This document shows, piece by piece, positions 26,453 through 62,462 of a stretch of DNA of 64,000 nt (its first letter is position 1; the number at the start of each line of letters is the position of its first letter). Origin of the DNA: Aurantimonas marina (GTDB lineage Bacteria > Pseudomonadota > Alphaproteobacteria > Rhizobiales > Rhizobiaceae); assembly GCF_017183135.1 (NCBI RefSeq), contig NZ_JADDXW010000002.1:62001-126000 (forward strand). Reading direction: 5' to 3'. The notes beneath the pieces are model-generated. The model had not been told where the DNA came from. It did no database searches and saw only the letters and a list, made by a program, of their open reading frames with translations. A program made the position numbers and the translations under genes.

Positions 26453-26511
26453 CCCAACTGCCAAACCTACCGGCTTCTGCTATGCAAGGCGGACGTGACG
26501 ACGGGGAGACG

Positions 26512-26916
26512 ATGATGGACGAGACCGACGTGATGCCGCGGGGTGATCTTACGGTACGCATTCCGGCCATGCCGGCCGACGCCAACGCCAATGGCGACAT
26601 CTTCGGCGGCTGGGTGATGTCGCAGATGGATCTGGCCGCCGGCATCCGTGCCGCCGAGCGGGCTCGCGGCCGGGTCGCGACGATCGCCGTCAACGCGCTG
26701 ACCTTCAAGAAACCGGTGAAGATCGGCGACACGCTCTGCGTCTATTCCTCGATCGAGAAGGTCGGCCGCACCTCGATCACGCTGGCCATCGAGGCCTGGA
26801 CCAAGGCCCGCGCCTCGAACGAGCGGACGAAGGTGACCGAAGGCACCTTCGTCATGGTGGCGATCGACGAGAACGGCCGCCCGGTGGCGATCGCGGCGGA
26901 GACACTGGCTGAGTGA
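26512..26916 (+). CDS. Acyl-CoA thioesterase (YciA/hotdog family)
   Basis: A 134-residue hotdog-fold thioesterase. ANANGDIFGGWVMSQMDLAAG is the YciA catalytic segment with the Asn/Asp/Gly pattern, and VNALTFKKPVKIGDTL the following strand. Such enzymes hydrolyse a range of acyl-CoAs in the cytosol. The ATG pair at 26512/26515 follows GGGGAG. Confidence 0.9.
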   Translation: MMDETDVMPRGDLTVRIPAMPADANANGDIFGGWVMSQMDLAAGIRAAERARGRVATIAVNALTFKKPVKIGDTLCVYSSIEKVGRTSITLAIEAWTKARASNERTKVTEGTFVMVAIDENGRPVAIAAETLAE

Positions 26917-26994
26917 GGCTCTTGTTCCGGCGGTCCCCCGCGCCGGGCTCGGAGGAGCATGCCGCCGTCGGAGCCGTTGCCGGAGCCGGCTGTC

Positions 26995-27843
26995 TCAATC
27001 CTTTGGGAAGTCGGTCGCTTCGCCGGTGGCGCGCCATTCCTCGATCTCCGCCAGCCGCGCCTTCAGCCGCTGGGTAACCTGGTCGACGCCCCAGGCGCCG
27101 AGTACGAGATGGCGCGGTGGCGCGGCGTGCTCGGTCAGCGCGATCATCGCCTCCGCCGCGCGCACCGGATCACCGGGCTGGGCGCCACTTCCCCCGCTGG
27201 TGCCCTGCATGCGTTTGCCCGCCGTGTCGGCGTAGTCGGCGATCTGGTTCGGCGTCTGCTTTAGCGAACGGCCAGCCCAGTCGGTGCGGAACGGCCCGGG
27301 CTCGATGGCGACCACCTTGATGCCGAGCGGCGCCACTTCGTCGGCCAGCGCGTCGGTGAAGCCTTCGACCGCGTGCTTGGTAGCGGCATAATAGCCCGAG
27401 CCCGGGAAGCCGATGAAACCGGCGACCGACGAGATGTTGAGAATGTGACCGCCGCGCTGTTCGCGCATACCGGGCAGTACGGCGCGCGTCAGTGCGAACA
27501 GGCCGAAGGCATTGGCCTCGAACATGTCGCGAATTTCGCTATCGACGCCCTCCTCGATTGCGGCCTGGTAGCCGTAGCCGGCATTGTTGACGAGCACATC
27601 GATCCGTCCGAAGCGCTCCTTTGCGGCCGTCACCGCCGCGGCGATGTCATCGGGCTTGGTCACGTCGAGCGAAACGGCCAGGGCGCGATCCTCCGCGCCA
27701 TCCACGAGATCGGCGACGCGCGCCTTGTCGCGCGAGGTGACGACAGCCCGCCAGCCGCGCTTGAGAACGGCTTCGGCGAGTTCGCGGCCGAAACCGGTCG
27801 AGCATCCCGATATGAACCAGACGGGCGTGGATTCTGTGGTCAT
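26995..27843 (-). CDS. Short-chain dehydrogenase/reductase
   Basis: A 282-residue classical SDR. The cofactor motif is SGCSTGFG (TGxxxGxG variant with Ser first), NNAGYG is intact, and the catalytic triad is S in NISSVAG with YYAATKHA. The length and C-terminal extension fit the YusZ/RhlG-like group often annotated as oxidoreductase SDR. A frame extension to 27972 is not supported. Confidence 0.9.
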   Translation of the reverse strand: MTTESTPVWFISGCSTGFGRELAEAVLKRGWRAVVTSRDKARVADLVDGAEDRALAVSLDVTKPDDIAAAVTAAKERFGRIDVLVNNAGYGYQAAIEEGVDSEIRDMFEANAFGLFALTRAVLPGMREQRGGHILNISSVAGFIGFPGSGYYAATKHAVEGFTDALADEVAPLGIKVVAIEPGPFRTDWAGRSLKQTPNQIADYADTAGKRMQGTSGGSGAQPGDPVRAAEAMIALTEHAAPPRHLVLGAWGVDQVTQRLKARLAEIEEWRATGEATDFPKD

Positions 27844-28077
27844 GATCTGCCTTCCAATCTCGGCGGAGCGCCGCTTTCGGCGCAGGGCGATGGCAGCCGC
27901 AACATAAGTCTGACGGCGGAACGGACAAGGCGGACGCTCCGGTGGCCGAGGAAGAACAGGGCCAATTCGCACGCCAGGGCTTTCCAGCAGCTCCCCGGGC
28001 CTGCCGATCGGCGGCTGCTCGGCATCGCCTTCGTCCTCGTAGCAGCGATTGCTCTTGTGTGGCCACGATTTGGGGGG

Positions 28078-28788
28078 TCATGACGTCGAGCCTACGGCCA
28101 CGCGTGCCGCGCCCGCCTCCAGCTTGTCCGCCAGCCGCCTGCGGGAACGGGCCCAGGCCCGACTGAAGGGCGTTTCGCCCCGCTCCGCCCGTCCCGCGGC
28201 CCGACGCAAGCCGTCCGGCAAGCCGGCTGGCACGCGCATCGACGCCCCCCGCCCCATCATCCTTCTCATCGCGTCCTCCGGCACCGGCATTTCCGAATAC
28301 TCCGCCTCGGGCAGCCGGATCGCGAGTTCGTGGATATGCGAGTATCCGGTCAATAGCAGAAACCGCTGTCCGCCCTGCCGTTCCATCGCCGCGAGCGTGT
28401 TGCGGAACATGCGATCCTCGCGTTCCACATGACGGTCGCACCAATCATCGATGCCGCGGACCGGCATGCCCCTTTCGACCGCCAGATGGGCACAATAGGC
28501 CATATCGGCCGGCCCATCCGCCAGCCAGTCCCGCGCGAGATAGTCCTCCCGCATTTCCAGTAGAAGACAATCGGGATCAAAGCCGTCGATCAGCCCCGCG
28601 AGGTCTGAGATGGGAAACTGGCGGGAGATGAAATGTGCGTTGTGAATCGTCCCGGCCATATAGAGGAGCCTGTCGGCGGCAGGATTGCGAAACTGTCGGA
28701 TGTGACGAAATTTCGCCTTCGCCGGCCACAGGCTGAAGGCGACAAGCGATGCGACTTCATGGATGATTGGACTCAACGCGATACCCAT
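28078..28788 (-). CDS. TraB/Tiki-like putative metallopeptidase in the RiPP cluster
   Basis: A 236-residue protein (start 28788; an ATG at 28842 would add 18 residues). It shows the spaced motifs of the TraB/GumN/Tiki superfamily: AGTIHNAHF (GxxH-type), LLLEMRED with a conserved Glu, and a second His segment in LTGYSHIHEL. Characterised Tiki proteins are metal-dependent proteases. No signal peptide is evident. It overlaps the preceding gene by 32 bases and is the last gene of the radical SAM operon; a role in leader removal or self-protection is inference. The C-terminal 70 residues are Arg/Ala-rich. Confidence 0.5.
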   Translation of the reverse strand: MGIALSPIIHEVASLVAFSLWPAKAKFRHIRQFRNPAADRLLYMAGTIHNAHFISRQFPISDLAGLIDGFDPDCLLLEMREDYLARDWLADGPADMAYCAHLAVERGMPVRGIDDWCDRHVEREDRMFRNTLAAMERQGGQRFLLLTGYSHIHELAIRLPEAEYSEMPVPEDAMRRMMGRGASMRVPAGLPDGLRRAAGRAERGETPFSRAWARSRRRLADKLEAGAARVAVGSTS

Positions 28789-29692
28789 CGGCGCTTTTCG
28801 GTTTGAAATAGATATCGTGCTTGCGGCCGTTTGACGCGACATAGGTCACTTCGTGCGAACCGGGAGGAAACTCCGACGCTGTGGCCGACAGGGCGGCCTC
28901 GATCTGCGGCAGTGTCGCCACGACGGTTCGAAAGTCCGGACGCAGCCAGCACCGGTCTGCCGACACGACGTTGAGGTTCACCTTCCAGGACGGTAGCCCC
29001 GGCGCTTTGCCGGCATCGGTATAGAGATGGGCCTCCCCGCACCATTTGGCATCCACCGCCTGCCACAGAAATCCCATGGCCGCACTCTCGCGTGAGTTCA
29101 GGAAGGCCGCGATCGCGTCTACCGACGTTCGCGGAACCCGGAAGTACAATTTGGCACGCGCCTCGCCGGCAGCGTCGACGTTCCAGCCGATCATGCTTGG
29201 CCAGGCACCGGTGAAGTGATCCATGAGCGCCCTGGCGGCGGTGAGCGTCGATGACGTCAACATCGCTCCCAGAACACCGACCGTGGCGGCGGACAAGGTC
29301 TCGAAATAGGCCCAGGGATTCAGATAGATTTTCAGCTGCCTCCCGGACGCGCCGGCCCCGGCGCCGATCCAGCGCGTGAAACTTCCCTGGAACGACGCTC
29401 GCCGGTCCAGACCATCGACCATACGGCCGAGCTCCCGAAAAGCCGTCGGCAGGGGCATGAAGGCCTGTAGTGCCAGACCGGACTGGCCAACGGACTGTGT
29501 AGCCGCAAGATCGTGGATGAAACGGACCGCGCCGACCTGTCCGCCGGCGAGACTGACCGACCATTCGAACGGCAGATGATCGTGGGTGATGCCGGAGCGC
29601 TCGCTCGCCCCACCGCATGTCTCGCGGACGTAGGAGCGATGGACATGGCCGAACAGCGCGGTCAGCGCCGCCATGTCGGCGTCGGCGTTCAT
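28757..29692 (-). CDS. Unrecognised RiPP-cluster enzyme, possibly ABBA-fold prenyltransferase
   Basis: A 311-residue soluble protein without signal peptide. I could not assign a family with certainty. Its strands resemble the alternating pattern of ABBA (DMATS/cyanobactin F-type) prenyltransferases: an early DHLPFEWSVSL followed by GAVRFIHDL, then LKIYLNPWAYF, MIGWNVD with AKLYFRVP, WKVNLNVV and HDIYFKP, giving the evenly spaced Lys/Tyr on strands that bind diphosphate in that fold. It starts in a 4-bp ATGA overlap with the second radical SAM gene and its size fits F-type enzymes (about 300 residues). Confidence 0.5.
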   Translation of the reverse strand: MNADADMAALTALFGHVHRSYVRETCGGASERSGITHDHLPFEWSVSLAGGQVGAVRFIHDLAATQSVGQSGLALQAFMPLPTAFRELGRMVDGLDRRASFQGSFTRWIGAGAGASGRQLKIYLNPWAYFETLSAATVGVLGAMLTSSTLTAARALMDHFTGAWPSMIGWNVDAAGEARAKLYFRVPRTSVDAIAAFLNSRESAAMGFLWQAVDAKWCGEAHLYTDAGKAPGLPSWKVNLNVVSADRCWLRPDFRTVVATLPQIEAALSATASEFPPGSHEVTYVASNGRKHDIYFKPKSADGYRVESNHP

Positions 29693-30633
29693 TGCACCGC
29701 GTGGGCGCGTTCGACACTGGGACTTCGCAGGCAGGCATGGCAGGCATCGCATTCGAACACCCGGGAATGCGCGGCACGTTGCCGCTTCAAATTCTCCACC
29801 CAGGCGTTCCGCCGGGAAAGCAACCGCGACAGATCGTCATTTCGCAGGCTTCCAATGGCATTTTTCACCTCCGCGACCCCGGCCGTCTGGCAGCAGAGCG
29901 CGACCGATCCGTCCCAATCCACGAACAGGCTATGCCCGGCAAGATACCCGCACGGGGCGGCATCACGCTGTTCTCCACGGCCGATGATCGCATCGCCAAG
30001 CGAAATATGGAATGGCCGCCCCCGCGCCCTGTTCTGTTGAACCCACCGCTTGATCTCATGCAGGCGGCGCGGGTCCATGCCGATCCCGGCTTTACCCGTA
30101 TCCGCGGTCTGGATCAGAGGGACGAAATGGATACGCTCCGCGCCCGAGCGATCGCGCAAGGCGTCGTACATCTCCGCGTCGAGCGACATCTGATCCGTCA
30201 TCGTGAATTGCGCATAGGTGCTGACGCCAAGGCCGGAGAGCAACCGCGCCGTCGTCATCACCCGGTCGAAGGTTCCCGGCCCGCGGATCGCATCATGCGC
30301 GGGCGCCGTGACGCCGTCGAAGCTCAACGTCACATGGTGCGGAATATGGCGGCTGCAGGCTTCCAGCAGCGGGTCGAGCAAGGTGCCGTTGGTGGTGATC
30401 GAATAGGCCAGCGACAGCGCCGCGCATTCCTCCACGACGGCGTTGAGATGGGGGTAAAGGGTCGGCTCCCCACCCGAAAACGAGACCCCGACGACGCCGA
30501 GGCACCGGGCCTCGACGAGCAGCTCCTTGCAGAGCGCCAGATCGAGATCCCGGTTGAAGTGCCGATGTTGCAGGCAATGGGCGCATTTCAGGTTGCAACG
30601 GGCCGTCAACAGAACGCCCAGATGCCTGATCAT
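29689..30633 (-). CDS. Radical SAM protein with SPASM/twitch-type C-terminus (second)
   Basis: A 314-residue radical SAM enzyme. The [4Fe-4S]-SAM motif CNLKCAHC is at residues 13-20, with SFSGGEPTL as the GGE motif. The C-terminal region has CGYLAGHSLFVDWDGSVALCC and a CDACHAC cluster, fitting an auxiliary iron-sulfur centre. It starts in an ATGA overlap with the upstream radical SAM gene and overlaps the next gene by 4 bp, so the three are translationally coupled. Probable peptide-modifying enzyme acting on the precursor encoded upstream; the reaction type is unknown. Confidence 0.87.
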   Translation of the reverse strand: MIRHLGVLLTARCNLKCAHCLQHRHFNRDLDLALCKELLVEARCLGVVGVSFSGGEPTLYPHLNAVVEECAALSLAYSITTNGTLLDPLLEACSRHIPHHVTLSFDGVTAPAHDAIRGPGTFDRVMTTARLLSGLGVSTYAQFTMTDQMSLDAEMYDALRDRSGAERIHFVPLIQTADTGKAGIGMDPRRLHEIKRWVQQNRARGRPFHISLGDAIIGRGEQRDAAPCGYLAGHSLFVDWDGSVALCCQTAGVAEVKNAIGSLRNDDLSRLLSRRNAWVENLKRQRAAHSRVFECDACHACLRSPSVERAHAVQ

Positions 30634-31844
30634 GGTATGTCGGCGGCGCGCGGCGGGTTGGCCATGACGAGCGCCTTCATCCGCGGCTCCAGCGCCTCCC
30701 AGTCGGGCTGCTCGCCGGGCGCGACATGGTCGTTCAGCCACTCCGCGATCAGGCACATGTAATTTGTCGGATGATACCCGGTCTTGCCGGGCAGCGGACA
30801 GGGATTGCAGGACAGGCCGTTGAATTCACAGCGATTGCAGGGAATCTGGTGCTTGTAGAGTACGGCGTTGTCGGGCTTTTGCACCGTTTCGTGGAAGCCG
30901 TTGAAGCGCTCGCTCGCGGTCAGGCTGTCGAGCGCGCCCTCCCTGATGTTGACCCGTTCGAACCGGGTATCCACGCCCTGCGACGCCGCGAGTTGACAGG
31001 GGCTGATGTCGCCATCGGGACCGACATGGACGTTGTCGTGGACGGCAGGGCAGCCGAAGGGCAACGGCGCGAGTTTCTCGGCCGCGTATTTGCGGTGGAA
31101 CTGATAGACCTTCGGCTTGGCCGGCACGTCGATCTGGATGTCGGGATAGTCGATGACGCAGTCCAGCAAGGTCACCAGCGCGCGAAACTGCGCGACGTTG
31201 TCAGCCGCCAGCCTTTCGTAATTCTGCAGGGCATCGCCCGTCGCGGAAAGATTGGTGACCTTCAGCCCGCCCGCGCCGATCCGACGGCATAGATCGACCA
31301 TGTCCCTGGCCCTGTCGGCCCATGCCGAGGTGATCACCGCCTGGATCTGGATCAGCGGATACTCCTGATTCCGTTCCTTTTTCGCGGCTGCGAGTTTTCC
31401 GACGAAAGAGCAGGTCTTGGCGAAGGTCCCGGCGCCTCGCATCAATTCGTGCGACCAGACGTCGGGACCGTCCAGGCTGACAACGACCTTGCGAACTCCC
31501 GTCTCGAATATCTTGTCGATATACTTTTGATCTTGCCGGATGCCGTTCGTATTGAACGAAATATTGAGCCCGGCATCGGCGGAAACCTGCAGGATTGTGA
31601 GGAAGTCCTTTCGGATCGTCGGCTCGCCGCCGAGATAATGAACGGACTCGACCCCGCGCGCCGCGGCTTCCCGGATGCTGGCGAGAAATTCCTCGGTCGA
31701 CAGATCGCGGATGGTGTCGTCGCGCAAACTTTCGCCCACGCAGCAGTGCGCGCAGGCCAGGTTGCACTTCGAATTGACGTCCCACCGCAGCAGTTTGGGA
31801 ACCGTCGAGCGGCGATAGGCCTCGGTTCTGGACTGACTGGGCAT
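30630..31844 (-). CDS. Radical SAM/SPASM peptide maturase (first)
   Basis: A 404-residue enzyme. CNLACAHC at residues 27-34 binds the catalytic cluster, and YLGGEPT is the GGE motif. The SPASM domain has FGCPAVHDN, GPDGDISPC, then CNRCEFNGLSCNPC and a last Cys in NYMC, enough for two auxiliary clusters. Such enzymes form thioether or carbon-carbon bonds in RiPP precursors. GGAGAGG precedes the ATG at 31844. The precursor gene lies 516 bp upstream on the same strand. Confidence 0.9.
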   Translation of the reverse strand: MPSQSRTEAYRRSTVPKLLRWDVNSKCNLACAHCCVGESLRDDTIRDLSTEEFLASIREAAARGVESVHYLGGEPTIRKDFLTILQVSADAGLNISFNTNGIRQDQKYIDKIFETGVRKVVVSLDGPDVWSHELMRGAGTFAKTCSFVGKLAAAKKERNQEYPLIQIQAVITSAWADRARDMVDLCRRIGAGGLKVTNLSATGDALQNYERLAADNVAQFRALVTLLDCVIDYPDIQIDVPAKPKVYQFHRKYAAEKLAPLPFGCPAVHDNVHVGPDGDISPCQLAASQGVDTRFERVNIREGALDSLTASERFNGFHETVQKPDNAVLYKHQIPCNRCEFNGLSCNPCPLPGKTGYHPTNYMCLIAEWLNDHVAPGEQPDWEALEPRMKALVMANPPRAADIP

Positions 31845-32360
31845 GATCCTCTCCGCGCTTTGGCGATGGCGATCCACCGATGAGTTGACAATCGGACGAT
31901 CTCAAGAGCGTCCGCCCGAGGGAATTTCGGTCATCGTCTTCGGTCATGGTCACGGCGTCGGCACGGATCGTAGCGGCGCTGCCGCCGTGCTGACGCTCGA
32001 ACTGCCCTGGAAGCCCCGGTCCGCCGATCGCCCCGCGCCGGATAGCACAGAAAGGCCGATCAACAGGTCTTCAGGCCTGCCGTTCGCCGAACGCGTATAC
32101 GTAGCCGTATCTCCGGTCACCGTTCGCCGCTCTCCGGCGACCAGGGTCCGATTCCTATCCCCTGACCGTCGAATTATCCATCGGCTAGCCCGAAACGTTG
32201 CTAGGATCGTCGGTACCCTCCGCGTGGATCACCCTCTGCGTGGATCACTGCGGCGAACCGAAAAACAGCACTGCGTTCCTATCGTCGTCCGATGCTCCCG
32301 CCCCGGCCACGCGGCCGGAGCCAATCGTCTGGACTTAGCGGAATGCTTGGGAGAACAGGT
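31845..32360 (-). other. Leader region between precursor and maturase genes
   Basis: No convincing gene; an open frame on the plus strand here has atypical composition. It contains a tandem pair of 16-bp repeats (32216-32247) and a GC-rich hairpin (CCGGCC, ACGC, GGCCGG at 32303-32318) that on the minus strand lies about 43 bases after the precursor stop. A hairpin there could limit read-through so that the peptide outnumbers its enzymes. Confidence 0.45.
32216..32247. repeat. Tandem 16-bp direct repeat
   Basis: Two adjacent copies of CCCTCNGCGTGGATCA differing at one base, in the gap between the precursor and maturase genes. Confidence 0.7.
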
Positions 32361-32591
32361 CTAGCAGTTCACACCGCCGCAGCCTGCACCCCAGGCCTCG
32401 GCCGGCCCGCCGCCGTCCGGCATATCCTTCAGCTTCGCTACCTTGGCATCAATATCCAGCATCAGCGCGATGGCGTCGTCTTTCACGCCCATGGACGACA
32501 GCATCTCTTTCTTCTGCGAATCATCCAGTTCACGCACGCTACTGAAATCTTTCGGGATCTTCATGTTTCGCGTAATCTTGAAACCGGGCAT
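32361..32591 (-). CDS. Putative RiPP precursor peptide
   Basis: A 76-residue peptide with no signal sequence. Residues 1 to about 58 are a charged, helical-looking leader; the last 17 residues are Gly-rich with one Trp (W67) and two Cys (C71, C76), ending AWGAGCGGVNC. A leader plus short Gly/Cys core next to two radical SAM/SPASM genes is the standard RiPP arrangement. AAGGAG sits seven bases before the ATG and a sigma-70-like promoter lies upstream. The core does not match a named precursor family that I know. A small protein of other function cannot be excluded. Confidence 0.72.
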   Translation of the reverse strand: MPGFKITRNMKIPKDFSSVRELDDSQKKEMLSSMGVKDDAIALMLDIDAKVAKLKDMPDGGGPAEAWGAGCGGVNC

Positions 32592-32984
32592 CTGACAGCT
32601 CCTTGCTTCGTTGGACAAAAGGATAGTGCGGCCGGGAGATCGTTTAGTCAATGCAGACGCAACGTCGTTTTTACATGTCCCTAGGTCATGATGGATGTGC
32701 GGCGATCGACCCCCAAGCCCTTGTCCGCCTCCCACCTAGGGGGCAATGCGCCTTTACCTCCGGCGCCCGCAGTCGGGAGCCTTCATCCCGGAGCACGGGC
32801 CGGGACGCATCGTCCGACCCGCTGACACGGAACCTGCCCGCCATTGGCGTGACGTCTTGACGCATGGTGGCGATGCCCTTTCTTCCGCCGGACCCGACGG
32901 CCGGCGCGACGTCGCTTGCCACTTGCGGATATGGTCGAACCCAGCCTGCACTCGGACGACCACGAACGGAGAATCCGAGGGATC
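32592..32984. other. Intergenic region upstream of the RiPP precursor
   Basis: Contains the divergent start regions of the precursor gene and yrhK-like gene. Apart from the promoter listed separately no gene or repeat is supported. Confidence 0.5.
32623..32651 (-). promoter_or_regulatory. Candidate promoter of the RiPP cluster
   Basis: Read on the minus strand: TTGACT (32651-32646), a 17-base spacer, CACTAT (32628-32623), about 30 bases before the precursor ATG. Confidence 0.45.
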
Positions 32985-33209
32985 ATGCTGCGAACGCTCG
33001 TCAACGATTATTTCTACATCCATCTCGGCATCGGCCTTGCCGGCAATCTTCTGTTCGTCATTGGCTCCATCCTGTTCTTCAAGGCGTTCGAAGCCTGGTA
33101 TACCGTGGCTGTCTGGATGTTCGTCGGCGGGTCGTCGGGCATGTTCCTCGGCTCGCTCGGACAGTTGTTCAAGACCATTTACGAAGCCGAGGAACGACGG
33201 CGCGACTGA
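32985..33209 (+). CDS. YrhK-like small membrane protein
   Basis: A 74-residue protein with two hydrophobic helices. GNLLFVIGSILFF followed by a second helix containing WMFVGGSSGMFLGS matches the YrhK domain layout. Function unknown. The ATG at 32985 has GAGG six bases upstream. Confidence 0.65.
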   Translation: MLRTLVNDYFYIHLGIGLAGNLLFVIGSILFFKAFEAWYTVAVWMFVGGSSGMFLGSLGQLFKTIYEAEERRRD

Positions 33210-33241
33210 TCCGACGGTCACGCCTTGCCCGTCCCCCTTCC

Positions 33242-34411
33242 CTATTTGCACACACCGCGCCGCCGGTTCTTGGCATCGAGGTGCAGATGGTCGGCATGGG
33301 CGCGGTTGTAGCCGGGGCCGAGCACCGTGCCGAAATAGCGGCAACCCGACTGCCGCACGCTCTTCTGGAATCCCTTCTGGCGGAACGAGAAGAAGCCCTT
33401 CTTCTCCACGTCGAAGGTGCTGCCGTCAGCGAATTTGAAGCCGCGCACGTCGAGTGCGTTGCCGCTGGCGTGCTCGCTGATCGTGCGTGAGCCGGCGATG
33501 CGCGAGCAGCGGTAGGACGATGCGTTGAGGACGGCCGTCGGTCGGGTCCACAGCCGCCAGCGGGCGGCCGGTTTGACCTCGTCCTCGACCCATTGGGAGA
33601 TGCGCGCCGCCGCCGGGCAGTTCAGCGTTGCCGCCGGCTGCATTCGCACGCCCTTGGCGATCTCCAGCACCTTGACCGGATAGGGGATGCCGCAACCGGC
33701 GCTTTTGCCGACCGGCGCCACGTCGACGAATTTGACGCCCATCTGACGCAAGGCCTTGCGGCACATCGCCTCCGATCGCGGCATCGCGGTGTAGCCACTC
33801 GGCGTTTCCTGTTCGAGGCGGCCACGCTCCGGCACCGTCGCTTGCGGCCGCGCGGGTTGCCGCTGGCCGCCAAGCGAGGCCACGATGCCCCGATGCGGTA
33901 CCAATTGCGGCGAAGGAGCGTCCCGGGATGCCGTCTCCGGTGAAGGAATCGCGCCCGGCGCGACGCGCTTGAGGCCTTGCCAGGGATCTTCGATGGATTC
34001 GACCGCGCCGAAGCGCGCGGGATCGGCGTCGACCTCGGACGGTGCGTCGAGCGGAGGCAGGGCGGCCGGATAGGCCGGGGCGGCAGGCGTCTGGGGCGTG
34101 GCGGGCGCGATGGATGCGGCACCGGCGGCGCGGGGCGGGCTTCGTCCTAGGAGATCGTCGAGCAGCACTCGGTCGTCGGCGGGTTGCGCCATCTGAGCGG
34201 GCGCCGGCGATAGAGATTGGAAATTCGGAACGTCCTGTCTGCCCATACCGGGCACGCTCGGCGTATACGTCTCGCCGGCAGCCGGCAAAGGGCCGCCCCA
34301 GATCATGGTGCCGCTTCCGCTTTGGGCCCAAGCGCCGGAGGAAAGGCTCGCCGCCGCGAAACAAACGGCGGCGAGCGCAGACCTGCGCCATCCGCTTTTA
34401 CGCAATACCAT
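33242..34411 (-). CDS. Extensin-like family protein (secreted)
   Basis: A 389-residue exported protein with a signal peptide ending near SSGAWAQ. A Pro/Ala-rich middle (about residues 60-200) separates it from a C-terminal extensin-like domain with four Cys (MCRKALRQMG, SAGCGIP, ATLNCP, YRCSRIAG), RTISEHASGNALDVRGF and HADHLHLD. The last two carry H/D residues typical of peptidase-M15-like folds. Common in Hyphomicrobiales, and probably a cell-envelope enzyme. Confidence 0.85.
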   Translation of the reverse strand: MVLRKSGWRRSALAAVCFAAASLSSGAWAQSGSGTMIWGGPLPAAGETYTPSVPGMGRQDVPNFQSLSPAPAQMAQPADDRVLLDDLLGRSPPRAAGAASIAPATPQTPAAPAYPAALPPLDAPSEVDADPARFGAVESIEDPWQGLKRVAPGAIPSPETASRDAPSPQLVPHRGIVASLGGQRQPARPQATVPERGRLEQETPSGYTAMPRSEAMCRKALRQMGVKFVDVAPVGKSAGCGIPYPVKVLEIAKGVRMQPAATLNCPAAARISQWVEDEVKPAARWRLWTRPTAVLNASSYRCSRIAGSRTISEHASGNALDVRGFKFADGSTFDVEKKGFFSFRQKGFQKSVRQSGCRYFGTVLGPGYNRAHADHLHLDAKNRRRGVCK

Positions 34412-35239
34412 GCGATGGCCTTTCGTCTTCCGCGAAACTCGAGCGGGACGAGGAAAAGCTACCGGCGTTTGGTAAGCGAAGGATGAACGGGATTCGGAAA
34501 ATGTCGCTTCCCGCCAGACGGGGCGATCAGCCCGGCAACGTATGCGGCACGGCGCCCCGGGTCGGATGCAACGGCGCGGCGCGGGCGGGCGGAGATGCCG
34601 CGCCAGTGAACAAAAGGGCTGCCGCCAGCCACCCGACCGCCGCTTTGCGGGGGTGCAGTCCGAGCGCCACAGGCGCCGAATTTCCGTGAGCGTCTCGCGA
34701 CGCTTCGCCAACCACACGGATCTGCCACATCGGTGCGCCGGAAACGATCCGGCCGGCCGGGAAACCGGCAGCGTGTCGCGAATGGATCGAGGGGAGCGAG
34801 TCGTCCTTCATGACCCGAGAGTCGCGCATCGGCTCTGAACCGAACATGAACGAACGGCGGCGCAACGAAACACGGGGCTGGGACCCGGGCCGCAACGAAG
34901 CAGACCCGCCAGCCGGCGCCGCCCACCCGTTCACGCAGTCGGCGGACGTCCGCTCGCGGAAAGTCGACGGGATCGCCGCGACCTTCGTGAGCCCCGGAAC
35001 CACGGCTTGGGTATCTTCGCAGTAGCGAGAGGAATTCGGCGGCGCGGCAACGACGAGCGGCTGATTCTTTTCGTTGACAGCTACGGAAGCTTGCGGTTGT
35101 ATCAAGATGATACACTTCGGTTGACGCAATAGCCAATCTTGTATTTTGTCGATGCGAGAATGAAAAAATCTGTTGATATCCGTCGGCTTTGATTTAATAC
35201 TTAACTCGCGCAATATCAAAATGTCAGGAGGCGTAAAAA
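34412..35239. other. Long intergenic region
   Basis: Several open frames on the minus strand here lack credible starts or domain-like composition. One minus-strand stretch near 34580-34650 encodes a signal-peptide-like hydrophobic run (GWLAAALLFTGAASPPARA) before a stop at 34527, possibly a decayed small secreted protein. From about 35070 the DNA is markedly AT-richer and holds the promoter of the next gene. Confidence 0.4.
35074..35114 (+). promoter_or_regulatory. Promoter with overlapping palindromic operator
   Basis: TTGACA (35074-35079), a 17-base spacer and TTGTAT (35097-35102) form a near-consensus promoter. A perfect 7-bp dyad TGTATCA-AGA-TGATACA (35098-35114) overlaps the -10 box, as expected for a repressor site. 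It precedes the small secreted-protein gene at 35240 by about 125 bases. Confidence 0.55.
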
Positions 35240-35545
35240 ATGCGTATGTTTCTGATTTCCGTTGCCGCTGCGGTCAGCACGCTGGCGTTGTCGGCTAGCG
35301 TCGACGCGAAGACGTTCACGCGAAAGGTCGTCGAAAACAACGACAAGTGCTATTTGGTCGAGTATATTCCTTCGACCTACATCTATAACACGAAGGGCAA
35401 GAAAGTGAGCGGCGAAAGCCGCAGCTGGGTCGGGAACATCGCCGATGGTGCCGTGATCATCAAGCGACGCAATCCGGCCGTCTACATCCAGACCCGCAAA
35501 TTGCTCGAGCAGGATCATTATACGCTCGTCTCGCAGGGCTGCTGA
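35240..35545 (+). CDS. Small secreted hypothetical protein
   Basis: A 101-residue protein with a signal peptide (FLISVAAAVSTLALSASVDA) and a mature part with two Cys (DKCYLVEYIP and the C-terminal QGC), probably disulfide bonded. Strong GGAGG before the ATG. Own promoter and terminator, so it is a monocistronic, possibly abundant envelope protein. Family not recognised. Confidence 0.7.
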   Translation: MRMFLISVAAAVSTLALSASVDAKTFTRKVVENNDKCYLVEYIPSTYIYNTKGKKVSGESRSWVGNIADGAVIIKRRNPAVYIQTRKLLEQDHYTLVSQGC

Positions 35546-35551
35546 CGTTTC

Positions 35552-35593
35552 GGAGAGGGAGCCCCCGGGCCTCCTCTCCTTCCTTTCCTTTCG
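35552..35593 (+). terminator. Terminator after small secreted protein
   Basis: A long GGAGAGG/CCTCTCC hairpin (35552-35579) with further pairing inside, followed by a T-rich tract. Confidence 0.65.
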
Positions 35594-35613
35594 CGCGCAT
35601 CGGTTGGAGATGA

Positions 35614-36057
35614 ATGATGGCCATCGGGCTGCTGACTCTCATGGCGGGACTGGCGATACCTTTCGCATCCCCGGATATCGACGCCGATCCGCTGCCTATA
35701 ACTGCCGATCTGAGCATCGCCTTCGAGTTTGTGGAGAGCGACGGCGGCTACGATCTCAACGCCCTCGTCAGCGACCGGGTGAGTGAAGATGTCAGGACGA
35801 TCCCGCTCGACAGCTGTGCCACGATCGACATCGGTGTCGGCGGCGAAACCCTCTTCGGCGAGCCCGTGGCATGCGACGATGAACGCTATGTCTTCGATCT
35901 GGTGGGTCGCCACGTCATCGTCAGCGGCGTCAAACGCAATCATGCGCTAAGGGATGTCGAGCCCGGCTACGTCATCCTGAACGGCGTTCCTCTGCTCGTC
36001 GAAGATGAGGAGCCCGTCGTCGAGCCGGCTCCCCCGCCGGCCTGGCAATTTCCCTGA
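35614..36057 (+). CDS. Secreted hypothetical protein, paralogue of the next gene
   Basis: A 147-residue exported protein with a short hydrophobic N-terminus and a Pro-rich C-terminal tail. The central part (FEFVESDGGYDLNALVSDR to YVILNGVPLLVE) aligns over about 95 residues with the neighbouring lipoprotein, including two conserved Cys (DSCATID, VACDDERY). Function unknown. Start at either of two consecutive ATGs. Confidence 0.65.
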   Translation: MMAIGLLTLMAGLAIPFASPDIDADPLPITADLSIAFEFVESDGGYDLNALVSDRVSEDVRTIPLDSCATIDIGVGGETLFGEPVACDDERYVFDLVGRHVIVSGVKRNHALRDVEPGYVILNGVPLLVEDEEPVVEPAPPPAWQFP

Positions 36058-36117
36058 TTCCAATCCGAAGGCTTTCGTTTTTCCCTCTCCAATCCGCTCA
36101 AGATCGGCAGGTGTGCG

Positions 36118-36747
36118 ATGATCAGAACGCTTCTCAATCCAGCGGAATCTTCAGATGAACGGATTCGAGGTGCCGCGCGCGCACGCTCCTGCGGGACGAT
36201 CCTGTTGTTGGCCGCCCTTATCCCGCTCGTCGCCGCATGCCAGTTCGCCAGGCCGGACGCCCAGGCGCGTCTGTCACTGAAGAACGACCGTGTCGCGGCA
36301 GTACAGGCTCGCCCCGCCATTCCCTTCGGTTACGCCGTGCGAGCCGCCTCGCCGCGATCGACAACCGCAGTCAGCCTCCACTTCGAGTTGGTGGAGCAGA
36401 AGCACGGCTACGATCTGAACGCGGTCGTCCTCGACCGCTCGACGGGCTCGCTGCGCACTGCGAAGATCCGGCGCTGCGACACCGTCGATCTCGACGCCTT
36501 CGACGCGAGCAGCCGCAGCCTTTTCGCCACGCCTGTGCTCTGCGACGGCCGCTCCTATTCCTTCGACATGCTCGGCGAGCGAATTGCCGTCGTCGGCCCC
36601 CGCCGCAACTACATTCTGCAGGGCCTGCCGCCCGGGCGTGTGGTGCTCAACGGCGTGCCGGTGCTGGTCGAGCCGCGCGGGCATCGCCATCCGGCGCCCG
36701 GCCGGCGGGACCGGTCCAGCCGACAGATTCCCTTCACCATTCAGTAA
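36118..36747 (+). CDS. Putative lipoprotein, paralogue of the preceding gene
   Basis: A 209-residue protein with a long N-region, a hydrophobic run and a lipobox-like LVAAC near residue 41. Its domain (FELVEQKHGYDLNAVVLDR to GRVVLNGVPVLVE) is homologous to the upstream gene, with the same two Cys (RRCDTVD, VLCDGRSY). The pair arose by tandem duplication and diverged, one becoming lipid-anchored. Function unknown. Confidence 0.65.
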   Translation: MIRTLLNPAESSDERIRGAARARSCGTILLLAALIPLVAACQFARPDAQARLSLKNDRVAAVQARPAIPFGYAVRAASPRSTTAVSLHFELVEQKHGYDLNAVVLDRSTGSLRTAKIRRCDTVDLDAFDASSRSLFATPVLCDGRSYSFDMLGERIAVVGPRRNYILQGLPPGRVVLNGVPVLVEPRGHRHPAPGRRDRSSRQIPFTIQ

Positions 36748-46396: not shown

Positions 46397-47089
46397 TTAT
46401 TTTGTCGTCTGCTCGCCCGACCCGTCGGGATCGCGCTCGGAGCTGTCTTCCGTCGTCCCGGCGGGGCTGGTGTTGCCGCTCGCATCGGTGGTCGTGCCGG
46501 CACCGTCGACCGGGCCGATCTTTTCGAGCGAGCCGTCGGGATCGCGCTCGCTGCTCTCTTCCACCGTTCCGGCGGCGTTGGCATTGCCGCTCGCATCGGT
46601 GGTCGTGCCGGCACCGTCGACCGGGCCGATCTTCTCGAGCGAGCCGTCGGGATCGCGCTCGCTGCTTTCCTCGTTCATCGACGCCATGGTGGCGGTGAAC
46701 GGCATCACGACGGGCTTGCCATCGGCCATGGTCGGTGTGTCCACGTCGGTCGCGCCCTCGCCGAAATCATAGGTGTCGTTGCCGTTGGTCTCGTCATGCA
46801 GCATGACCATGTACTGGCCGTCCGCGGCCAGATCCATATCGGCCTCCACCGCGACGTCGGTGCTCTCGCCGGCCGGGATCGCCACATGGCCGATCGAGCC
46901 CGGAACCACCGGCGCGCCGTCCTTCACCTCGTGCAGAACAAGATAGCCGCCATTGTCCGACGACACCTTGGCGAAGGTCGCGGTCTTGCCTTCGACCTTG
47001 ACGCCGGTGGTGTCGATCATGTTCTCGGCGAATGCGCTCGAGCCGAGCGCCAGAAGCGTCGCGGCGGTCGTCATCAGAAGCTTGTTCAT
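46397..47089 (-). CDS. Secreted protein with DUF7282-like domain and tandem repeats
   Basis: A 230-residue exported protein. A signal peptide (LLMTTAATLLALGSSAFA) is followed by a beta-rich domain of about 110 residues (GGYLVLHEVKDG, GQYMVMLHDETNGNDTYDF) resembling DUF7282. Then come two full copies and a partial third of a 37-residue acidic repeat (EESSERDPDGSLEKIGPVDG and following), nearly identical at the DNA level with a 111-bp period. Probably a periplasmic or surface protein; function unknown. Confidence 0.75.
   Translation of the reverse strand: MNKLLMTTAATLLALGSSAFAENMIDTTGVKVEGKTATFAKVSSDNGGYLVLHEVKDGAPVVPGSIGHVAIPAGESTDVAVEADMDLAADGQYMVMLHDETNGNDTYDFGEGATDVDTPTMADGKPVVMPFTATMASMNEESSERDPDGSLEKIGPVDGAGTTTDASGNANAAGTVEESSERDPDGSLEKIGPVDGAGTTTDASGNTSPAGTTEDSSERDPDGSGEQTTK
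46476..46671. repeat. 111-bp tandem coding repeat
   Basis: Near-identical units with a 111-bp offset inside the secreted-protein gene, for example the block starting at 46476 and again at 46587. A candidate for copy-number variation. Confidence 0.75.

Positions 47090-60372: not shown

Positions 60373-62462
<2,090 letters not shown>

Follow-up and report, generated by a model that had tools for sequence, protein, structure and literature searches.

What product is made by five adjacent genes on the minus strand of contig NZ_JADDXW010000002.1 of Aurantimonas marina (positions 62,001 to 126,000; this stretch of 64,000 nucleotides is referred to below as the window), which encode a 76-residue peptide (precursor), two radical S-adenosylmethionine (SAM) proteins (rSAM1 and rSAM2), a 311-residue protein resembling prenyltransferases and a 236-residue TIKI-like protein? 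The conserved precursor beside the enzymes strongly suggests a ribosomally synthesized and post-translationally modified peptide (RiPP), supporting an earlier reading of the bare sequence (original prediction) that had taken the locus for a peptide natural-product pathway. Probably, the cassette serves the prenylation of a single tryptophan (Trp67), the modification of the peptide's tail by the two radical enzymes and, less certainly, the cleavage of its leader by the TIKI-like protein.

Two further Aurantimonas assemblies (A. marianensis and the uncultured Aurantimonas isolate 3-561) contain all five genes in identical order, at the same genomic place and with all frames intact. The co-occurrence raised as a check in the original prediction is thus borne out, and the precursor frame is kept in both of these other carriers of the enzymes. 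Among eight genomes of the genus, precursor and rSAM1 are both present in two and both absent from six, the latter having no cassette between its flanks; the third carrier is an additional named assembly. In the two carriers searched for it, the precursor is represented by one copy each.

The precursor frame is a real gene under purifying selection in all three cassettes. Of its 76 aligned columns, 72 are invariant, those of residues 59–76 without exception. Substitutions between precursor pairs fall mostly on third codon positions (10/13, 26/31 and 28/34), and those changing the amino acid are few (1/13, 4.5/31 and 5/34, as path averages), with binomial P of 1e-7 to 4e-15 against a neutral 78.5% for the three, mutually dependent pairs. 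Its ratio of nonsynonymous to synonymous divergence (dN/dS; 0.019–0.026 among the three carriers) is the lowest of the cassette, as compared to 0.06–0.07 for rSAM1, 0.13–0.15 for rSAM2, and 0.24–0.31 and 0.30–0.36 for the two fastest-changing genes, encoding the TIKI-like and the prenyltransferase-like protein, respectively. A decaying or chance assembly of genes without function, as the absence from six of eight genus genomes might indicate, is very improbable in view of the intact frames in three genomes, dN/dS values of 0.02–0.36 across the five genes and a synonymous divergence (dS) of the enzyme genes within the range of most flanking genes. The latter amounts to 0.32–0.41 for rSAM1, 0.23–0.36 for rSAM2, 0.26–0.40 for the prenyltransferase-like and 0.29–0.35 for the TIKI-like gene (0.30–1.24 for the short precursor), and to 0.26–0.38, 0.32–0.58 and 0.19–0.33 for flanking genes (0.03 for one short frame of 38 codons). 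The most likely history is therefore that the common ancestor of the three carriers already had the cassette, which then was passed on with the chromosome. Genome G846, one of the six without cassette, is similarly close to the window (0.21–0.30) and may have lost the cassette or branched off earlier.

Aromatic residues of the precursor are confined to F4, F16 and W67, with Tyr and His absent. Trp67, the sole indole, is located in the invariant tail together with two invariant cysteines (Cys71 and Cys76) of the C-terminal CGGVNC. Since the peptide offers a single indole and neither Tyr nor His, Trp67 would be the simplest target for an enzyme of the tryptophan dimethylallyltransferase (DMATS) type acting on it. 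The paired cysteines would also agree with a metal-binding (chalkophore-like) peptide modified by the radical enzymes in its Cys-Gly-Gly region; however, such a product appears improbable, since none of the five proteins was identified by Pfam as an MNIO (DUF692), a TonB receptor or a metal exporter and the prenyltransferase-like protein would be left with no obvious role.

Both rSAM proteins match the Pfam family Radical_SAM (E 5.2e-20 and 6.9e-19), whereas SPASM is matched by rSAM2 above the cut-off (24.6 versus 21.5 bits) and by rSAM1 slightly below it (20.7 bits). The CX3CX2C motifs and auxiliary-cluster-type cysteine sets (Table 1) are complete and invariant in the three genomes, agreeing with the two radical SAM proteins with auxiliary-cluster cysteines of the original prediction; the set of rSAM1 looks like a full SPASM domain, while that of rSAM2 is shorter. 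No curated NCBIfam family reached its cut-off among the best 25 of 78 families for rSAM1 or the best 25 of 70 for rSAM2. The best curated relatives of rSAM1 are the heme b synthase AhbD, the mycofactocin maturase (90.1 of 265 bits) and PqqE (89.9 of 381.35 bits), that of rSAM2 is ScmF (79.8 bits versus a 400-bit cut-off). Cut-offs of sactipeptide/ranthipeptide maturases were missed by rSAM1 (StsB, 65.8 of 625 bits) and by rSAM2 (PapB, 52.4 of 340 bits). A role in defence was rejected, as the weak viperin matches of both proteins reflect the shared radical SAM core.

The similarity of rSAM1 to AhbD, mycofactocin maturase and PqqE would be in line with a small redox cofactor being derived from the peptide, comparable to PqqA for pyrroloquinoline quinone or MftA for mycofactocin, with radical changes near Trp67 or the Cys end, excision of the unit and its subsequent prenylation. 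An invariant tail is expected for a cofactor, and the five proteins include no transporter according to Pfam, as originally noted. Yet this route is unlikely: the scores of rSAM1 stay far below the respective cut-offs, neither a PqqD-like nor a dehydrogenase match was obtained with Pfam for the five proteins, the neighbouring putative short-chain dehydrogenase gene is retained in G846 even though the cassette is absent, and the distribution inside the one genus is patchy.

The possible ABBA-type prenyltransferase of the original prediction, the 311-residue protein, is upheld by profile comparison. Alignment by hhalign of the three orthologues with six bacterial DMATS proteins (two of eight dropped) yielded a probability of 95.8 and E 6.8e-9 (one comparison) over residues 29–198, as compared to a probability of 0.15 for the TIKI-like profile as single control. 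Trp_DMAT (PF11991) was matched at E<=1 by all three orthologues (best E 2.8e-5), the only other Pfam family being Filamin (one of three, E 0.065). At an identity of 16–21% to bacterial DMATS, the nine residues given in Table 1 are identical in 9/9 aligned sequences (three orthologues, six bacterial DMATS), Y295 deriving from the MAFFT alignment alone, as it lies outside the hhalign span. In the DMATS/ABBA family, the glutamate of the PxE motif binds the indole NH, and K/Y pairs on the barrel strands bind the diphosphate. The 311-residue protein is regarded here as remotely related to the tryptophan dimethylallyltransferases of bacteria.

This enzyme could also act on free indole or a free amino acid, with the rSAM pair and the peptide forming a separate, unprenylated product. 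Two of the fetched bacterial DMATS genes adjoin a tryptophanase gene and one is located near genes for a cytochrome P450 and a flavin adenine dinucleotide (FAD)-dependent oxidoreductase (small precursors were not searched for there), and the prenyltransferase-like gene belongs to the two fastest-changing ones of the cassette. Nonetheless, we regard this division of labour as slightly less likely still than the cofactor route, considering that the gene overlaps its cassette neighbours in all three genomes and that the precursor contains exactly one indole, placed within the invariant tail.

In case of the 236-residue protein, the earlier TraB-like assignment was partly upheld. All three orthologues retain unchanged GTIH, a Glu together with three hydrophobic residues, and GYSH; this pair of GxxH motifs plus acidic residue resembles the His/Glu catalytic set of TIKI enzymes as given in passages of PMC6254334. 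The motif order GxxH...E...GxxH, which was picked after being seen, was present in 13 of the 14 GumN proteins and arose in 364 of 200,000 shuffles; the distance between both GxxH amounts to 102 residues, versus 233–236 in GumN. Weak matches to DUF5694 were obtained for all three orthologues (best E 0.006). The TraB/Tiki label is a motif-based one, and its family-level part did not stand: Pfam TraB_PrgY_gumN and the GumN profile remained unmatched (details below).

In the favoured pathway to a prenylated, radically modified peptide, the conserved precursor would be bound via its 50–60 residue leader, presumably without a PqqD-type domain, since Pfam matched none in the five proteins. The invariant tail GGGPAEAWGAGCGGVNC may be altered by the pair of radical SAM/SPASM enzymes, family chemistry suggesting thioether or C–C cross-links via Cys71 and/or Cys76, while the DMATS-like enzyme would attach a prenyl group to Trp67. 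Removal of the leader near DGGG by the TIKI-like protein is conceivable and the weakest step of this scheme; the product could be exported by a transporter encoded elsewhere or be retained in the cell. As leader and tail are nearly unchanged, a product with a fixed partner, e.g., a signal, a metal or redox ligand or a cofactor-like molecule, would be more fitting than a fast-evolving bacteriocin, i.e., the extreme conservation hints at a defined target and not at an arms race. One may speculate, with some reserve and short of favouring it, that the cassette represents a new class of RiPPs, with one Trp/Cys tail being converted jointly by two radical SAM/SPASM enzymes and a prenyltransferase of the DMATS branch to a cross-linked prenyl-tryptophan peptide released by a compact TIKI-type leader peptidase. 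If true, radical cross-linking and indole prenylation would be united in one four-enzyme set, and the DMATS branch, familiar chiefly from alkaloid-type pathways, would extend to a ribosomal peptide. With one Trp and two Cys in the tail, the roles of the individual enzymes should be separable by few co-expressions.

Several results weigh against this pathway. Both curated cut-offs were missed by the 311-residue protein (Trp_DMAT, 24.1 versus 25 bits; NCBIfam DMATS, TIGR03429, 21 of 163.85 bits, E 1.7e-4 over residues 30–96), which is why it is filed as a remote relative and not as a full member. Sequence and profile searches of solved structures with this protein matched no prenyltransferase, with a tape measure protein of a phage as best match (E 0.0025 with the single sequence, 0.11 with the profile), and two AlphaFold models had a very low confidence (predicted local distance difference test, pLDDT, of 36 and 38). 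For the TIKI-like protein, TraB_PrgY_gumN (PF01963) gave no match at E<=10 with any of the three orthologues, hhalign against the 14 GumN proteins a probability of 0.3, and the comparison with solved structures was negative. Pfam matches of the five proteins comprise no domain of the PqqD or RiPP recognition element (RRE) type, and no transporter or immunity gene was recognised within the cassette. Independent recurrence is missing, since all three cassettes are from one genus; a PF11991 search of 385 class genomes did not recover even the window's own gene, nor anything in the controls, and is uninformative. Finally, chemistry and function of the pathway consist of steps that we infer. The low-confidence modelling of the 311-residue protein shows strand pairs at 105–126, 164–186, 220–242 and 280–298 with helices between, in an order that would fit an ABBA protein. 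Foldseek with the model of pLDDT 36 retrieved no match at E<=0.001 and aspartate kinase as top matches, with the histidine prenyltransferase 9iia at ranks 18 and 29 (E ~1, almost full length).

The open reading frames of the window (part of a 4.03-Mb genome comprising 66 contigs) confirmed the predicted layout, with all five frames in place on the minus strand and overlaps of 4, 4 and 32 bp at the successive enzyme–enzyme junctions from rSAM1 via rSAM2 and the prenyltransferase-like gene to the TIKI-like gene (Table 1).

Table 1. Features of the Aurantimonas marina cassette, in window coordinates
Feature	Coordinates	Strand	Characteristics
Upstream block TTGACTAA...CGCACTATC and AGGAG ribosome site	32592..32660	-	3-genome alignment
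Precursor peptide, 76 aa	32361..32591	-	leader ~1-59, invariant tail 59-76 (DGGGPAEAWGAGCGGVNC)
Gap precursor/rSAM1, 516 bp, with dispersed-repeat piece	31845..32360	-	
rSAM1, 404 aa	30630..31844	-	CX3CX2C 27-34; auxiliary-cluster-type Cys 265, 283, 336, 339, 346, 349, 364
rSAM2, 314 aa	29689..30633	-	CX3CX2C 13-20; auxiliary-cluster-type Cys 228, 247, 248, 295, 298, 301
DMATS/ABBA-like prenyltransferase (putative), 311 aa	28757..29692	-	D38, P41, E43, K121, P126, L141, K181, Y183, Y295
TIKI-like protein (by motif), 236 aa, candidate leader peptidase	28078..28788	-	GTIH 46-49, E78, GYSH 148-151

Upstream of the precursor, TTGACTAA...CGCACTATC and the AGGAG site just ahead of the ATG are kept in the three genomes, while the adjoining sequence varies. 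By eye, this block is promoter-like with a long spacer, and the window has no second instance of its -35-like motif; a standard promoter scan (standard spacing) found nothing at this position. In the genome alignment, G846 matches window positions 26458–27981, followed by 93 bases and then by 32994–36747, and because of this empty site the cassette is delimited to 27982–32993. In the five other genus genomes without cassette, a thioesterase-like gene (to ~26900) lies 0.02–0.8 kb from 32985 or 33242 (flank distances rechecked in four of the six cassette-less genomes: G846, G137, G845 and G849). Since the left neighbour at 26995–27870 is unaligned in these five, the exact site is visible in G846 alone. 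This neighbour was judged to be a short-chain dehydrogenase, names of flanking genes stemming from frame reading. It aligns over 287–291 codons with its counterparts in the uncultured Aurantimonas and G846, but over 47 codons in A. marianensis, immediately at the cassette edge.

The gap between precursor and rSAM1 comprises 114 bp in isolate 3-561, which there has no dispersed repeat. In the window, the repeat piece extends from 31958 to 32298 (best part 32232–32298), with other copies of 67–86% identity elsewhere in the same genome, in G846 and in A. marianensis (G848). Outside the cassette, a 111-bp unit (37 codons' length) is present in 2.2 copies (91% match) at 46418–46666. An Rfam search of the window gave no match.

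Genome samples comprised 95 to 385 genomes each, drawn from a far larger set and all from the window's phylum, and in these neither the rSAM1 nor the prenyltransferase type was found outside Aurantimonas. Because of this restriction, relatives in Actinomycetota and Cyanobacteriota, the source of the DMATS genes used, would escape detection. The window alone was retrieved with the 311-residue protein from 199 family and 385 class genomes, with a nine-row DMATS profile from 95 class genomes, with rSAM1 from 299 phylum genomes (E<=1e-25) and with the rSAM1 profile from the 199 family genomes (E<=1e-20). The latter search thus revealed no homologue of rSAM1 without the small gene, rSAM2 not having been searched on its own in genomes. 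In 347 order genomes, the profile of the 311-residue protein found the window and nine matches (E 0.0016–0.0073), which were dismissed as chance; five read as succinate-CoA ligase alpha subunits and one as a radical SAM protein, the latter being a 509-residue frame of genome G939. A scan of 84,980 genomes employed two exact 7-residue patterns (QDQKYID and MCLIAEW) and for this reason detects close relatives only; the third locus it returned, a stretch from Clostridia, has 27% identity over residues 17–128.

Among 72,556 plasmids, the 311-residue protein had no tblastn match at 1e-5 and three at E<=10 (E 7–8), the best of which (E 7) belongs to the tryptophan dimethylallyltransferase family and stems from Streptomyces. 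Plasmid matches of rSAM1 (368 records) and rSAM2 (184 records) are all below 60% identity (best among the matches listed 26–28% and 28–30%, respectively), many being annotated as pqqE, peaB or radical SAM. No plasmid match was obtained for the precursor at E<=1, plasmids being its sole search outside the genus, or for the TIKI-like protein at E<=10, for which no genome search was made. The 311-residue protein matched neither phages (E<=0.01) nor viral contigs; in the latter, nine loci were found for query A1 and one for A3 (24–33% identity over part of the query).

Compared to known systems, the 311-residue protein shares profile similarity and residues with bacterial DMATS of Streptomyces and Calothrix plasmids. 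Four full frames of these bacterial DMATS comprise 362–390 residues, and the contexts examined have no annotated radical SAM gene. On plasmid4 of Calothrix sp. NIES-4101 (L048:5938-7026), a gene resembling DMATS, though annotated as hypothetical (28.7% identity to a Streptomyces one), is located near an annotated dimethylaniline monooxygenase gene and short-chain dehydrogenase/reductase (SDR) genes.

The leader and Cys-containing core beside radical SAM/SPASM enzymes are reminiscent of sactipeptide/ranthipeptide pathways, among which thuricin CD involves two rSAM enzymes according to excerpts of PMC12093266; the Aurantimonas cassette differs by the additional prenyltransferase-like gene and by rSAM proteins below all maturase cut-offs (among the 25 best-scoring of 78 and 70 families, respectively). 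Radical SAM/SPASM enzymes in one cassette are also known from SynChlorMet (ScmE/ScmF), with rSAM2 scoring best, albeit far below the cut-off, with ScmF. In ATP-grasp loci (branch 2 of the graspetides), SPASM enzymes occur beside Tiki/TraB peptidases suggested as leader cutters, as described in parts of PMC8939145; in contrast, the five Aurantimonas proteins include no ATP-grasp ligase, and their TIKI-like resemblance is at motif level. Excerpts of a graspetide survey (PMC13097080) mention prenyltransferases in some clusters and, separately, a SPASM protein in group 14. Among the open-licence PubMed Central (PMC) papers retrieved, judged mostly by titles and abstracts, none was seen to pair radical SAM/SPASM with DMATS-type enzymes on one peptide.

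The closest parallel for the proposed prenylation is provided by soluble prenyltransferases acting on side chains of ribosomal peptides, among them cyanobactins and at least one lanthipeptide. These enzymes include the peptide prenyltransferases KgpF and LimF (passages of PMC11002830) and the ABBA enzyme MppC, which according to sections of PMC12715784 geranylates one Trp of a lanthipeptide and requires the leader. By profile, the Aurantimonas protein is nearest to DMATS (Trp_DMAT), KgpF and MppC sequences not having been compared directly. The partner enzymes differ as well: cyanobactin proteases or a lanthionine synthetase in the cyanobactin and lanthipeptide pathways, two radical SAM/SPASM enzymes in Aurantimonas.

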